Assembly: GCF_001183985.1 (NCBI RefSeq)
Contig: NZ_LFZW01000001.1
Coordinates: forward strand, 2,028,863 to 2,092,862
Reading direction: 5' to 3'
Length of the DNA stretch: 64,000 bases
Source: Peribacillus loiseleuriae
Lineage (GTDB): Bacteria; Bacillota; Bacilli; Bacillales; DSM-1321
Numbering within the stretch: position 1 is the stretch's first letter; every line of letters begins with the position of its first letter. A program made the position numbers and the translations under genes. The notes beneath the pieces were generated by a model, which saw only the letters and a program-made list of their open reading frames with translations, did no database searches and was not told the origin of the DNA. This document shows, piece by piece, positions 43,679-58,917 of the stretch.

Positions 43679-43945
43679 ATGGCAGAAAAATTATACACAA
43701 TTATTGATGATGCAGGAATTCATGCACGCCCGGCAACACTTTTGGTTAAATCAGTATCTAATTTTAACAGTGAGATCAACTTAGAATATAACGGAAAAAG
43801 CGTAAACTTAAAATCAATTATGGGTGTTATGTCATTAGGAATTGTAAAAGGTGCTGAAACAAAAATTGTTGCATCTGGTTCAGATGAAAACGAAGTAATT
43901 GCTGCGGTTACTGAAACAATCACGAAACAGGGGTTAGGCCAATGA
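43679..43945 (+). CDS. HPr-like phosphocarrier protein (second copy)
   Basis: An 88-aa HPr with active-site [12 protein letters not shown] and regulatory [12 protein letters not shown]. It overlaps the Enzyme I gene by four bases (ATGA), as in canonical ptsHI operons, so the two are translationally coupled. It differs from the HPr at 36166 at many positions, so the cluster has two distinct carriers. ATG follows AAAAAGGGGTCATAATAA. Confidence 0.93.
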
Positions 43946-45660
43946 TTGTTCAAAGTCTAAAAGGGATTGGAGCATCAGCAGGAATTGCCATTGCAAAAGC
44001 TTATCGATTAGAAGAACCAGAACTAGTCGTGGAAAAACGTGTGATTGACAGCATCGAAGCAGAAATTCAACGTTTTACTGCTGCGATTAGCCAATCGACA
44101 TCGGAGCTTGAACAAATAAAAGAACATGCTTTCAAAGAGTTAGGAGAAGATAAAGCAGCAATTTTTGCTGCTCACCTTCTTGTCCTAAGTGATCCAGAGC
44201 TTATTAACCCAATCAAAGACAAAATCACAACTGAAAAAGTGAATGCTGAATTTGCCTTACAGGAAGTTGCAAATATGTTTATCGGCATGTTCGAGTCAAT
44301 GGACAATGAATACATGAAGGAACGTGCTTCAGATATCCGGGATGTGACAAAACGTGTGATGTCTCATCTTTTAGGTGTAACGATTCCGAATCCAAGTATG
44401 ATCTCTGAGGAAGTTATTATTATTGCTGAGGATTTAACTCCATCTGATACAGCTCAATTAAATCGACAATATGTGAAAGGGTTTACGACCGATATCGGTG
44501 GACGCACATCCCATTCAGCAATAATGGCTCGCTCATTGGAAATTCCCGCAGTTGTTGGAACAAAAACAGGCACAACTGATATCGAAAATGGCGTATTAGT
44601 CATCCTAGACGGCTTAGCTGGAACAGTGATTGTCGATCCGTCAGCTGATACTGTGAAAGAATATGAAGAGAAAAAAGCTACTTATGAAGCAAAAAAGGCA
44701 GAGTGGGCAAAGCTTGTGAATGAGCCGACTGTTTCAAAAGATGGACAACATGTAGAACTCGCTGCCAATATTGGTACGCCTGAGGATGTAAAGGGTGTAC
44801 TTGAAAACGGTGGTGAAGGTGTCGGCTTGTATCGTACCGAATTTTTATATATGGGACGTACTCAGCTTCCGACTGAAGAGGAGCAATTTGATGCTTATAA
44901 ATCCGTATTAGAGCGCATGGAAGGTAAGCCTGTTGTTGTGCGTACACTTGATATCGGTGGAGATAAAGAACTTCCATACTTAGACTTACCAAAGGAAATG
45001 AATCCATTTCTAGGATTCCGTGCGATTCGTTTATGCTTAGAAATGCAGGATATGTTCCGCATCCAACTTCGAGCCTTGCTTAGAGCAGGCGTTTATGGAA
45101 ATTTAAAAATCATGTTTCCTATGATTGCCACACTAGATGAGTTCCGTTCGGCAAAAGGAATTCTTGAAGAAGAAAAACAAAAGCTTTTGTTTGAAGGCCA
45201 GCAGGTAGTAGAAAAAATCGAGCTGGGGATCATGGTGGAAATTCCTTCTACTGCTGTTTTAGCTGATCAGTTTGCTAAAGAAGTGGATTTTTTCAGCATT
45301 GGTACAAATGATTTAGTCCAATATTCAATGGCTGCAGATCGTATGAACCAACGTGTTTCCTATCTATATCAGCCATACAGTCCGGCAATTTTAAGATTGG
45401 TTAAAATGGTAATTGATGCTGCGCATGCTGAAGGCAAATGGGCAGGTATGTGCGGTGAAATGGCGGGAGACGAAACAGCAATTCCAATTCTCTTAGGCCT
45501 GGGACTTGATGAGTTCTCAATGAGTGCAACATCCATCCTAAAAGTACGTTCCCAAATTCTTCGTCTTTCTAAAACAGAAATGAAGAACTTAGCAGAAAAA
45601 GCCTTGCAAATGAAAACAACAAGTGAAGTAATCGAAGCCGTAAAGGAAATTATGAAATAG
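43942..45660 (+). CDS. ptsI: PTS Enzyme I
   Basis: A 572-aa Enzyme I. The phosphorylated His is in [12 protein letters not shown] at about residue 190; the PEP-binding barrel shows [64 protein letters not shown] and the Cys-containing [10 protein letters not shown]. All are intact and the length is normal, so it should transfer phosphate from PEP to HPr. A cluster-borne Enzyme I is unusual because most Firmicutes rely on one housekeeping copy. It may be a second ptsI or a relocated copy; the rest of the genome would decide. Confidence 0.94.
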
Positions 45661-45803
45661 GAACGGTTATAAAAAATGATTTTTAACGGGGACGGTTTTA
45701 TTTTTTTGAAAAATACTTGTAAAAGCCGTTCTCATTAACCATTATGAACCATTTCTCGTAAGAACCGAGACAATGAACGATGATACACATTGATGGCACA
45801 TGA

Positions 45804-46778
<975 letters not shown>

Positions 46779-46904
46779 GATGTGCATTTCCACCAGCTTT
46801 TTAATAGTGAAACAAGGTAGAAAGCCATGGTTAATGCAGGTCTTGTGTTTGACTTGCTATTAATCTAATAGGTTCATATAAATATTTTTAGCACAGAGGT
46901 AATA

Positions 46905-46973
46905 TGTTGAGTGACAATAAAGTTTTTCAATTTACAATAAAGTCATTTAAAACATAATAAAGTTGTTCAATAT
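46905..46973 (+). repeat. Tn7-like end with three 20-bp TnsB-type sites
   Basis: ACAATAAAGT at 46914, ACAATAAAGT at 46934 and ATAATAAAGT at 46954, each followed by a T-rich half ending in AA or AC. This dense array resembles the right end of Tn7. Confidence 0.75.
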
Positions 46974-47090
46974 TACATGTGCAAGCGAAAAGACTAAATA
47001 AATATAAGTTTTCACTGATTTGTCGACCTAAGAAAGGATTTTTATTAATAACCAGTTTAAGATAATGGGTGAGTGATTAGGGGAATTTGT

Positions 47091-47273
47091 ATGATATTTA
47101 TAGAGTTAGATGAGTTAGAATACAGAATCAATCAACTGAGAAAAGAATTGATTCAGATTGCTGAAATAACTGGCTTAAATAGCCGTGAGACCATTTATTG
47201 CAGTCGGAAATTAGACAAACTCATCACGATCTATCAAAAATCTTCTTATAAAAAAATAGAAATATGTTGTTGA
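47091..47273 (+). CDS. Spo0E-like aspartyl-phosphate phosphatase, 60 aa
   Basis: A small two-helix protein of the Spo0E family. The helix hairpin (ELEYRINQLRKELIQIAEIT, then GLNSRETIYCSRKLDKLITI) ends in the family signature S-x-x-LD-x-LI. Such proteins dephosphorylate Spo0A and so delay sporulation. ATG at 47091 is preferred over the GTG at 47073 because AGGGGAA precedes it suitably. The C-terminus is lysine-rich with two cysteines. It is the only gene inside the Tn7-like element, so its dose would travel with it. Confidence 0.75.
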   Translation: MIFIELDELEYRINQLRKELIQIAEITGLNSRETIYCSRKLDKLITIYQKSSYKKIEICC

Positions 47274-47311
47274 ATGGCAATGAAGTTGTTTGAATATTAA
47301 CATTTTAAACA

Positions 47312-47452
47312 ACTTTATTATCATTAGTTTTGAAATTTAATCTTCATGTTACGATCGAAATTAAACAACTTATTTTTTGTTTGATCTGAATTTAGAACGG
47401 TTTTATGCGAGTTTGACGCTTCAAAATTAAATGACTTTATTGTTACGGTACA
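47312..47452 (-). repeat. Tn7-like opposite end with spaced sites
   Basis: Reverse-orientation sites ACTTTATTAT at 47312, a weaker ACTTATTTTT near 47368, and ACTTTATTGT at 47434, then TACGGTACA to the end. Wider spacing resembles the left end of Tn7. Confidence 0.65.
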
Positions 47453-47510
47453 TAGAGGTAAGAATGGGGTTGTCTAAAAGGTACATTTTATCGTGAATTT
47501 TAACCAAGAA

Positions 47511-47550
47511 AAAACCCAAGAATGTTGATAAAACAACATTCTTGGGTTTT
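47511..47550. terminator. Hairpin AAACCCAAGAATGTTG/CAACATTCTTGGGTTTT
   Basis: A 16-bp perfect stem over a six-base loop with T run; it lies in sequence downstream of the Tn7-like element. Confidence 0.75.
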
Positions 47551-47660
47551 GCTGTATATAAATTTTTGCTTAAAAAACTACTTTTCGGACAGTGCCATTT
47601 TATTAGAATTATAGTGAATCTCAAAAATAATAGAACCAGAAACAGAAACAGGTAAAAATT

Positions 47661-58680: not shown

Positions 58681-58864
58681 ATTCCATTAAAGGGCGCGAT
58701 TGTAGGCAACACAGGAGAAAATGACCAAACTTTTTAAAAACCACATTTGAAATGATAAAGAAAGAATCCATTTTGAACAAACTTTTTTCAAAATGGATTC
58801 TTTTGATTTGCCGTAAAATGCAGGCACATAAGATATTTTTGATCAAACTTTATTATAAAGCTAC
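58681..58864. repeat. Dispersed GATCAAAC repeat, full copy
   Basis: TTCCATTAAAGGGCGCGATT, ATGACCAAACTTTTTAAA, the hairpin AGAATCCATTTTGA with CAAAATGGATTCTTTT, and closing GATCAAACTTTATTATAAAGC; same order as 28875-29064 with a different stem sequence. Confidence 0.8.
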
Positions 58865-58917
58865 AAAATGCTTCTATAGTTGAGGAATCGTAAATAACCA
58901 GTTTTAACAAATTGCCT

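Follow-up and report, generated by a model that had tools for sequence, protein, structure and literature searches.

Can a segment of about half a kilobase, carrying one gene and no transposase, be a natural mobile element of the Tn7 type? The question is raised by positions 46905-47452 of the window, the 64,000-nt stretch of the Peribacillus loiseleuriae genome analysed here, where Tn7-like termini enclose a single Spo0E-family gene. The analysis compared the ends of this segment with those of complete Tn7-like transposons, traced further copies in the genome, the genus and the order, and searched for the genes that could move it.

Results

End architecture of the window element

The segment begins and ends with TGT-N6-ACAATAAAG, at 46905-46922 on the plus strand and at 47435-47452 on the minus strand, and is bounded by two unequal arrays of TnsB-like sites (Table 1). 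Counted from the terminal T, these sites lie at offsets of 12, 32 and 52 in the R end and of 12, 78 and 134 in the L end, so that all six sites are kept in the correct geometry. The segment thus has the TGT...ACA termini and the asymmetric repeat arrays of Tn7-like ends, with no tnsABC inside and no tns gene of any kind within its 548 bp. The sequence-only reading of this DNA had proposed just this layout, with TGT-N6 termini at both ends, three sites at exact 20-bp spacing at one end, widely spaced inverse sites at the other, and an interior free of tns genes with one Spo0E-like gene. Each of these features was recovered: the inverse sites number three, and the Spo0E-like frame is the only ORF of at least 45 aa in the element when ATG, GTG and TTG starts are allowed.

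Chance repeats as the source of the ends are ruled out by shuffle counts and matrix scores. The degenerate pattern TGTN6AYAATAAAG has three matches in the window against 0.02 expected (100 shuffles), the third of them (58848-58865) belonging to a second end subfamily, and the exact end pattern has 18 matches across the genome (5.43 Mb) against 0 for the reversed control. For a weight matrix that excluded the sites of the window itself, the end scores are 29.5 and 28.0, whereas the best score per dinucleotide shuffle of the window (n = 100) averages 11.0 and reaches at most 19.8. The R1 model gives 56.6 bits for the window R end, which is one of its nine training rows.

Inside the element, a further TnsB-site-like sequence, absent from the sequence-only reading, overlaps the 3' end of the Spo0E gene and is inverted relative to the inner L-end site; an inverted repeat, I3, has its arms at 47273-47294 and 47304-47325 (82%). 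The internal site is possibly part of a hairpin or the remnant of an old R end. Promoter-like hexamers occur in the R-end repeats (Table 1), and the region 46780-47620 contains eight promoter-like pairs against 5.2 expected, a weak excess obtained by consensus scan only.

The second end subfamily is represented in the window by five L-type ends with the repeat AATAAAGTTTGATCA (Table 1), four of which have sites at offsets of about 12, 76-78 and 130-133, as judged with a matrix built from the same five and similar sites. No R-end partner could be paired with them within the window. The TnsA locus of another genome (G159, L163) has an R end with 20-bp spacing and a repeat similar to AATAAAGTTTGATCA.

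Table 1. Features of the window, and elements elsewhere with the same type of ends. Flank scores give the matching positions of the 5-bp sequences on either side.
Feature	Position	Strand	Description
Non-autonomous Tn7-type element	46905..47452	.	548 bp, TGT...ACA; from end patterns and geometry
R-type end	46905..46974	+	Terminal TGT and three TnsB-like sites (46917-46930, 46937-46950, 46957-46970), 20-bp spacing
Promoter-like hexamers, second pair	46911-46938	+	In R end; consensus scan only
Promoter-like hexamers in R-end repeats	46931..46958	+	TTTACA-16-CATAAT, pointing into the element
Spo0E-family ORF	47073..47273	+	66 aa from GTG; PF09388
Internal TnsB-site-like sequence	47268-47293	+	Score 24.6
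L-type end	47303..47452	-	TGT terminus (read on minus strand); TnsB-like sites 47440-47427, 47374-47361, 47318-47305
Unrelated multi-copy repeat	47462..47595 (limits approximate)	.	Abuts the element, 0-10 bp outside the L end
Five L-type ends, second Tn7-like subfamily	29064, 32493, 58865, 61696, 63411	-	Repeat AATAAAGTTTGATCA
Tn552-like set	L020 (contig C3) 15595-18647		Resolvase, Mu_C/rve transposase (481 aa), AAA ATPase (278 aa)
Second Spo0E copy, 505 bp	C1:2358487-2358991		5/5 flanks; Spo0E cargo
Sister element, 244 bp			5/5 flanks; no ORF of at least 20 aa
Sister element, 844 bp			5/5 flanks; 156-aa protein, no Pfam match
Sister element, 1222 bp			5/5 flanks; 275-aa GNAT
Sister element, 1379 bp			5/5 flanks; GrpB and a 152-aa protein without Pfam match
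Sister element, 1623 bp			5/5 flanks; M48-like peptidase
Sister element, 7832 bp			5/5 flanks; ABC transporter, two acetyltransferase-like, TetR-like (last ones by reading)
Sister element, 838 bp			4/5 flanks; GNAT
Sister element, 904 bp			4/5 flanks; 173-aa protein, no Pfam match
Sister element, 1272 bp			4/5 flanks; GNAT as in the 1222-bp element
Sister element, 3881 bp	L122		4/5 flanks; in the 20-pair set, absent from the 17-pair set

Complete Tn7-like transposons with matching ends

A search of the order for TnsA (PF08722) gave matches in 91 of 397 genomes. Among the 87 loci scanned around the 114 TnsA hits listed (fused proteins longer than 800 aa being mostly left out), clear same-repeat ends were found beside tnsA in two, G089 and G354, whose elements belong to other families of the order; the TnsA locus of G177 showed a weaker likeness to the window end repeat. 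The G089 element spans 20,134 bp, adjoins glmS (by reading of the ORF), is flanked by the 5-bp duplication ATCTA, and encodes TnsA (N and C domains), a Mu_C-type TnsB, a TnsC-like ATPase, TnsD (E 2.2e-108) and TnsE (E 2.6e-14), together with genes that read as restriction-like. Its tnsA is a 182-aa ORF that starts later than an ATG next to the R end and, to judge from the sequence, may be interrupted. The end sites of this element lie at 12, 32 and 52 (R) and at 12, 79 and 134 (L); by these offsets, each end site of the window element is placed, to within 1 bp, as in a complete TnsABCDE transposon. The earlier reading had proposed to look for full Tn7-like elements with the same ends. The G354 element (17,559 bp, adjoining glmS, with the 5-bp duplication AGAAA) has R sites at 12, 32, 51 and 73, L sites 66 and 55 bp apart, and an L terminus of TGA, not TGT.

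The likeness to G089 extends to the bases themselves. The two R ends are identical at 49 of 66 positions without gaps, whereas 200 random 66-bp stretches from 59 kb of the G089 contig, aligned with gaps allowed, gave a mean of 37.8 and a maximum of 46; for the L ends, 109 aligned identities compare with a random mean of 88.5 and a maximum of 100. A 61-nt Tn7 right-end sequence matches plasmid R721 exactly, about 75 bases before a TnsA gene, and the Tn7 of this plasmid has TGT-N6-ACAATAAAG close before tnsA, with an outer site equal to that of the window. On contig C8 of G089 (118368-118373, L233), two Tn7-like ends adjoin, with 4 bp separating the L end of the first element from the end of a second one.

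A second Spo0E copy, an ortholog and sister elements

The window element has a second copy in the same genome, located between genes reading as PTS components and 92% identical over the aligned bases, with a perfect 5-bp target duplication, ACTAA, at its exact ends. This copy is damaged: two of its three R sites are deleted, and its L terminus is TAT, not TGT. The window copy has no target duplication, its flanks TAATA and TAGAG matching at two of five positions. Another genome of the genus, G022, has the window locus with a nearly identical flank and an element that is 96% alike over the first 481 bp and has lost its outer L end. At the left end of the G022 element, two copies of TGTTGAGTGA enclose 48 extra bases; one simple reading would be that the window lineage lost DNA by deletion between these 10-bp repeats. 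The G022 left flank, AATCC, restores no duplication for the window copy.

Stretches of the repeat abutting the L end (query 534-695, window about 47452-47613) match in eight of the other 35 genomes of the genus (G009, G010, G012, G014, G025, G026, G027 and G035), and because of this multi-copy sequence the target-duplication and empty-site tests on the window copy are hampered. The same repeat contains a terminator-like hairpin with a 17-bp stem (47511-47550).

Ends of the window type are widespread in the genus. An R-end sequence model, with the window end among its nine training rows, has matches in 23 of 36 genus genomes and 18 matches in the genome studied here, some of which are L or partial ends. 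When 72,556 plasmid records were queried with the R end, 14 matched, all from Bacillales-type genera (Peribacillus, Priestia and others), and no match was found in the phage records searched. The sequence-only reading was to be given up if the repeats proved not to lie at element boundaries in other genomes; instead, among 17 candidate end pairs drawn from 61 loci with 83 candidate ends, the 5-bp flanks agree at 5/5 positions in seven and at 4/5 in three, the remaining seven agreeing at no more than 2/5 (two at 2/5, two at 1/5 and three at 0/5). Reshuffling of the flanks (2000 trials) gave a mean of 0.46 perfect matches, chance true pairs included, and a maximum of four. An alternative pairing gave 20 pairs, some of them with an end or locus in common, of which five score 5/5, three 4/5, three 2/5, seven 1/5 and two 0/5; the matrix behind both counts included the window's own ends.

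Across 13 elements whose end sites were tabulated, and which were picked partly for matching flanks and are thus a more biased sample than the two pairings above, the R sites lie at 12, 32 and 52 and the L sites at 12, 76-81 and 131-135, with some sites missing or displaced (the 904-bp element, for example, has one R site at 59, and the 244-bp element has one at 47). The earlier emphasis on Spo0E as the cargo has to be widened accordingly: the Spo0E element exists, and the same ends also carry GNAT, GrpB or M48-like genes, or none. The two GNAT elements of 1222 and 1272 bp, from two genus genomes, are 94.5% alike over 1088 bp in an alignment that continues 14 bp past the R end and ends short of the outer L end, and have the flanks AGAGT/AGAGT and GCTGC/GCTGT. 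At L010 (14762-15599), a GNAT mini-element apparently lies inside an FHA-domain-like frame, both flanks reading as protein by eye.

Empty sites, which the earlier reading had suggested seeking in relatives, have a candidate for a sister and none for the window copy. In a trial with seven sister elements, one clear candidate emerged, for the 1379-bp element, where a G022 stretch (C12 16265-16458; 194 bp against 200 bp of joined flanks, 80%) spans the junction; a weaker candidate concerns the 1222-bp element, where a stretch of the genome that carries the window (G000 C1 3524272-3524369) crosses the junction with 19 bp on one side. Both are read from alignment coordinates only. In 36 genomes, no empty site was found for the window copy or for the second Spo0E copy.

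These copies bear directly on whether the unit might be a decayed relic, formed by internal deletion of a larger Tn7-like island and never mobile as a small unit, with Spo0E as a leftover. The missing target duplication of the window copy, the losses in G022 and in the second copy, and the lack of visible purifying selection on the Spo0E gene would fit such decay. However, the second copy has the same two boundaries at another place, flanked by a perfect 5-bp duplication, and insertion of a unit of about 0.5 kb has therefore probably taken place at least once; duplications also flank other small elements (244-1623 bp), and the six correctly placed sites survive in the window copy. A relic is accordingly conceivable but unlikely. 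The window feature is best explained, with a probability of roughly 0.85, as a natural mini-Tn7 in which both ends, R and L, are complete and enclose a single cargo gene. It has transposon-type ends, lacks a transposase and occurs at more than one genomic place, and may also be named a Tn7-type mobile insertion cassette.

The Spo0E-family gene as cargo

The ORF within the element matches PF09388 over its whole length (E 2.7e-13; 50.1 bits against a cut-off of 23), and its likelier start is the ATG at 47091 (60 aa), preceded by the ribosome-binding-like sequence AGGGGA. The protein of the second copy has weak matches to the solved chains 2c0s (E 0.022) and 2bzb (E 0.023). The canonical motif of the family is SQELD, for which a literature search found no paper; the window copy has SRKLD, both other copies have SQKLD, and chain 2bzb has SRDLD at the corresponding place.

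Members of the Spo0E family drain phosphate from Spo0A~P, and the gene could be adaptive cargo, a delay of sporulation keeping the host growing while the element or its helper spreads. This proposal is consistent with the family match, with a reading frame that is open in all three copies (their C-terminal ends differing), with R-end promoter-like hexamers that point at the gene, and with the presence of Spo0E-like genes on Bacillaceae plasmids. Against it, the three pairwise comparisons of the copies give synonymous to nonsynonymous differences of 4:8, 2:11 and 5:14, as expected without constraint, and this excess of nonsynonymous changes in every comparison offers no support for a selected sporulation effect; moreover, the cargos of the sisters (GNAT, GrpB, M48-like, none) are not developmental. 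Other Spo0E genes (70-78% identity) were rejected as Tn7-ended cargo, since none of the nine related loci scanned (L110-L117 and L121, with L114 at a contig end) has an end scoring above 20 within 3 kb; those at L111 and L115 score 16.3 and 16.4. Selection for a sporulation effect is thus a rather improbable account of the cargo. As far as the three sequences tell, there is no sign of purifying selection, and the gene may for that reason be passing baggage of the mini-Tn7.

The surroundings of the two Spo0E copies would also fit another origin for the second one. The genome has two paralogous ptsI-pfkA-like clusters (L108 1788-4640; window 43942-46778; these names, like that of the PTS components, were given by reading), and each has a Spo0E element downstream, as would be expected if the second copy came from duplication of this region and not from transposition. 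The sequences next to the two copies are unlike on either side, the distance between element and pfkA is about 0.13 kb in the window against 4.8 kb at the second copy, a difference of about 4.7 kb, and the second copy has its perfect 5-bp duplication at the exact ends, all of which makes regional duplication in place of transposition improbable. Duplication of the ptsI-pfkA area may have contributed to there being two Spo0E copies.

Search for the transposition genes

No TnsA (PF08722) or TniQ (PF06527) match was found by Pfam in the genome that carries the window; both profiles match proteins of G089, PF08722 has matches in relatives, and neither profile has any in 14 control genomes. TnsA is present in 3 of 36 genus genomes, and no TnsABC set with window-type ends was found in the genome itself or in the genus (36 genomes). 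Given this distribution of TnsA, movement of the window element would require TnsABC in trans.

The only Mu_C-type transposase found in the genome is that of the Tn552-like set on contig C3 (Table 1). The idea that the ends belong to this element (resolvase, TnpA, TnpB), which would then mobilise the unit, draws on that sole transposase and on an R-type end about 6 kb away on the same contig, but it is extremely improbable, because no opposed end of the same type scoring above 11 occurs anywhere on the 70.9-kb contig, ends bracketing TnpA/TnpB were not found there, the duplications are of 5 bp, and the geometry, the asymmetry and the TnsABCDE element of the same geometry point to Tn7.

Other candidate helpers were rejected one by one. 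Near the TnsA-type genes of G003 (L086), a single end was found, with a score of 22.9; host-like genes fill the 2.4 kb that separate it from tnsA, and a search of 62 kb gave no opposed end. The Tn7-like elements of G010 and of a Peribacillus asahii plasmid have R sites about 20 bp apart with another repeat sequence. In G027, tnsA has an end next to it that faces the other way, and of tnsB no more was found than a similar stretch of 59 aa containing a stop. The G003 locus is a divergent Tn7-like set for which no ends were found: at L086 5162-10373, a TnsA-like gene precedes genes for an ATPase and for two proteins of 648 and 522 aa, the 648-aa protein having no Pfam match and being similar to annotated transposases. 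A scan of contigs with the G003 TnsB yielded one locus, in Fictibacillus, and its ends do not match. A plasmid labelled Klebsiella grimontii, a label that may be wrong, has L ends like those of the window (L138; CP079755.1 220000-269900) and also a TnsABC-type set next to a SAVED/nucleotidyltransferase cluster.

Discussion

The following mechanism is proposed for the mini-Tn7. A Tn7-like element with the same end specificity would supply TnsA, TnsB and TnsC; these would occupy the three sites of each end, and the bound transposase would pair the ends, excise the element and insert it elsewhere, duplicating 5 bp of the target. Binding, pairing and cutting would fall to TnsAB of the G089/G354 specificity, while TnsC with TnsD or TnsE would pick the target site. 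Since neither Spo0E copy is at glmS, our guess is that both were inserted by a TnsE-like or unspecific route. An element without tns genes would move only while a matching Tn7-like element is in the cell; no such element was found in the genome, and the window copy is therefore probably dormant. The tns promoter of Tn7 is located at the R end. In the window element, the R end could drive the cargo, as the promoter-like hexamers in its 20-bp repeats point at the Spo0E gene, and expression of this gene would be predicted to delay sporulation through Spo0A~P.

For the genus as a whole, the evidence leans slightly towards a population of Tn7 satellites in this Bacillales genus: single genes, including a sporulation phosphatase, would travel as three-plus-three-site mini-Tn7 cassettes that far outnumber transposase genes, fall into two or more subfamilies of end specificity, and spread to places other than glmS when a matching element passes, with cargo and L ends maybe being exchanged.

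Elements of this kind would be easily overlooked. Benler et al. (2021; PMC8649781) used the binding sites on either side of tnsB to delimit Tn7-like elements, and its main text has none of the words nonautonomous, non-autonomous and MITE; the word Tn7 is likewise absent from the part covered of PMC6542083. Searches anchored on tnsB would pass over elements without tnsB, and transposase-anchored surveys of Tn7-like elements would in general miss transposase-less ones. Among the matches listed for open-access PMC text, no natural tns-less Tn7 element was found by title or abstract. The parts are already known, namely Tn7, natural non-autonomous elements and mobile insertion cassettes; what appears to be new, by the matches listed, is that they combine into numerous natural Tn7 units that lack tns genes and carry one or few genes. 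If the cassettes move, Tn7-type transposases shape genomes beyond their own islands, and small genes, among them a developmental regulator, are scattered beyond attTn7. With the end sites tabulated for the 13 elements, Tn7-ended cassettes become searchable.

Compared with known systems, the cargo resembles the Spo0E-family aspartyl-phosphate phosphatases in matching PF09388 over its whole length and differs from them in sitting within a transposable element. MITEs are likewise small and non-autonomous, with ends that outnumber transposases, and the ORF-less 244-bp sister fits this description; however, most sisters examined carry an open gene, and their ends are asymmetric arrays, not simple inverted repeats. 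A review (PMC10969869) gives MITE sizes of 50-500 bp, and its Tn7 passage concerns the target site. Mobile insertion cassettes such as MIC231 of Bacillus cereus and mic-qnrD share with the window element the inverted ends, the passenger gene and the lack of a transposase, and with its sister copies the target duplication. According to PMC3913671, the IS231A transposase mobilised MIC231 in trans; the ends of MIC231 are those of an insertion sequence, whereas the window element has asymmetric multi-site ends of the Tn7 type. Tn7 and Tn7-like transposons agree with the window element in the TGT...ACA termini, the TGT-N6-ACAATAAAG outer site, the R spacing of about 20 bp and the wide L sites, and also in the 5-bp target duplication, seen at its sister copies; unlike them, it lacks tns genes, measures about 0.5 kb as against 17.6-20.1 kb, carries one gene and does not lie at glmS. 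Laboratory mini-Tn7 vectors consist of Tn7 ends around a cargo and are moved by TnsABC(D) supplied in trans. The window element shares with them the Tn7-type ends around a cargo, but it is natural, and its ends are those of another Tn7-like subgroup.
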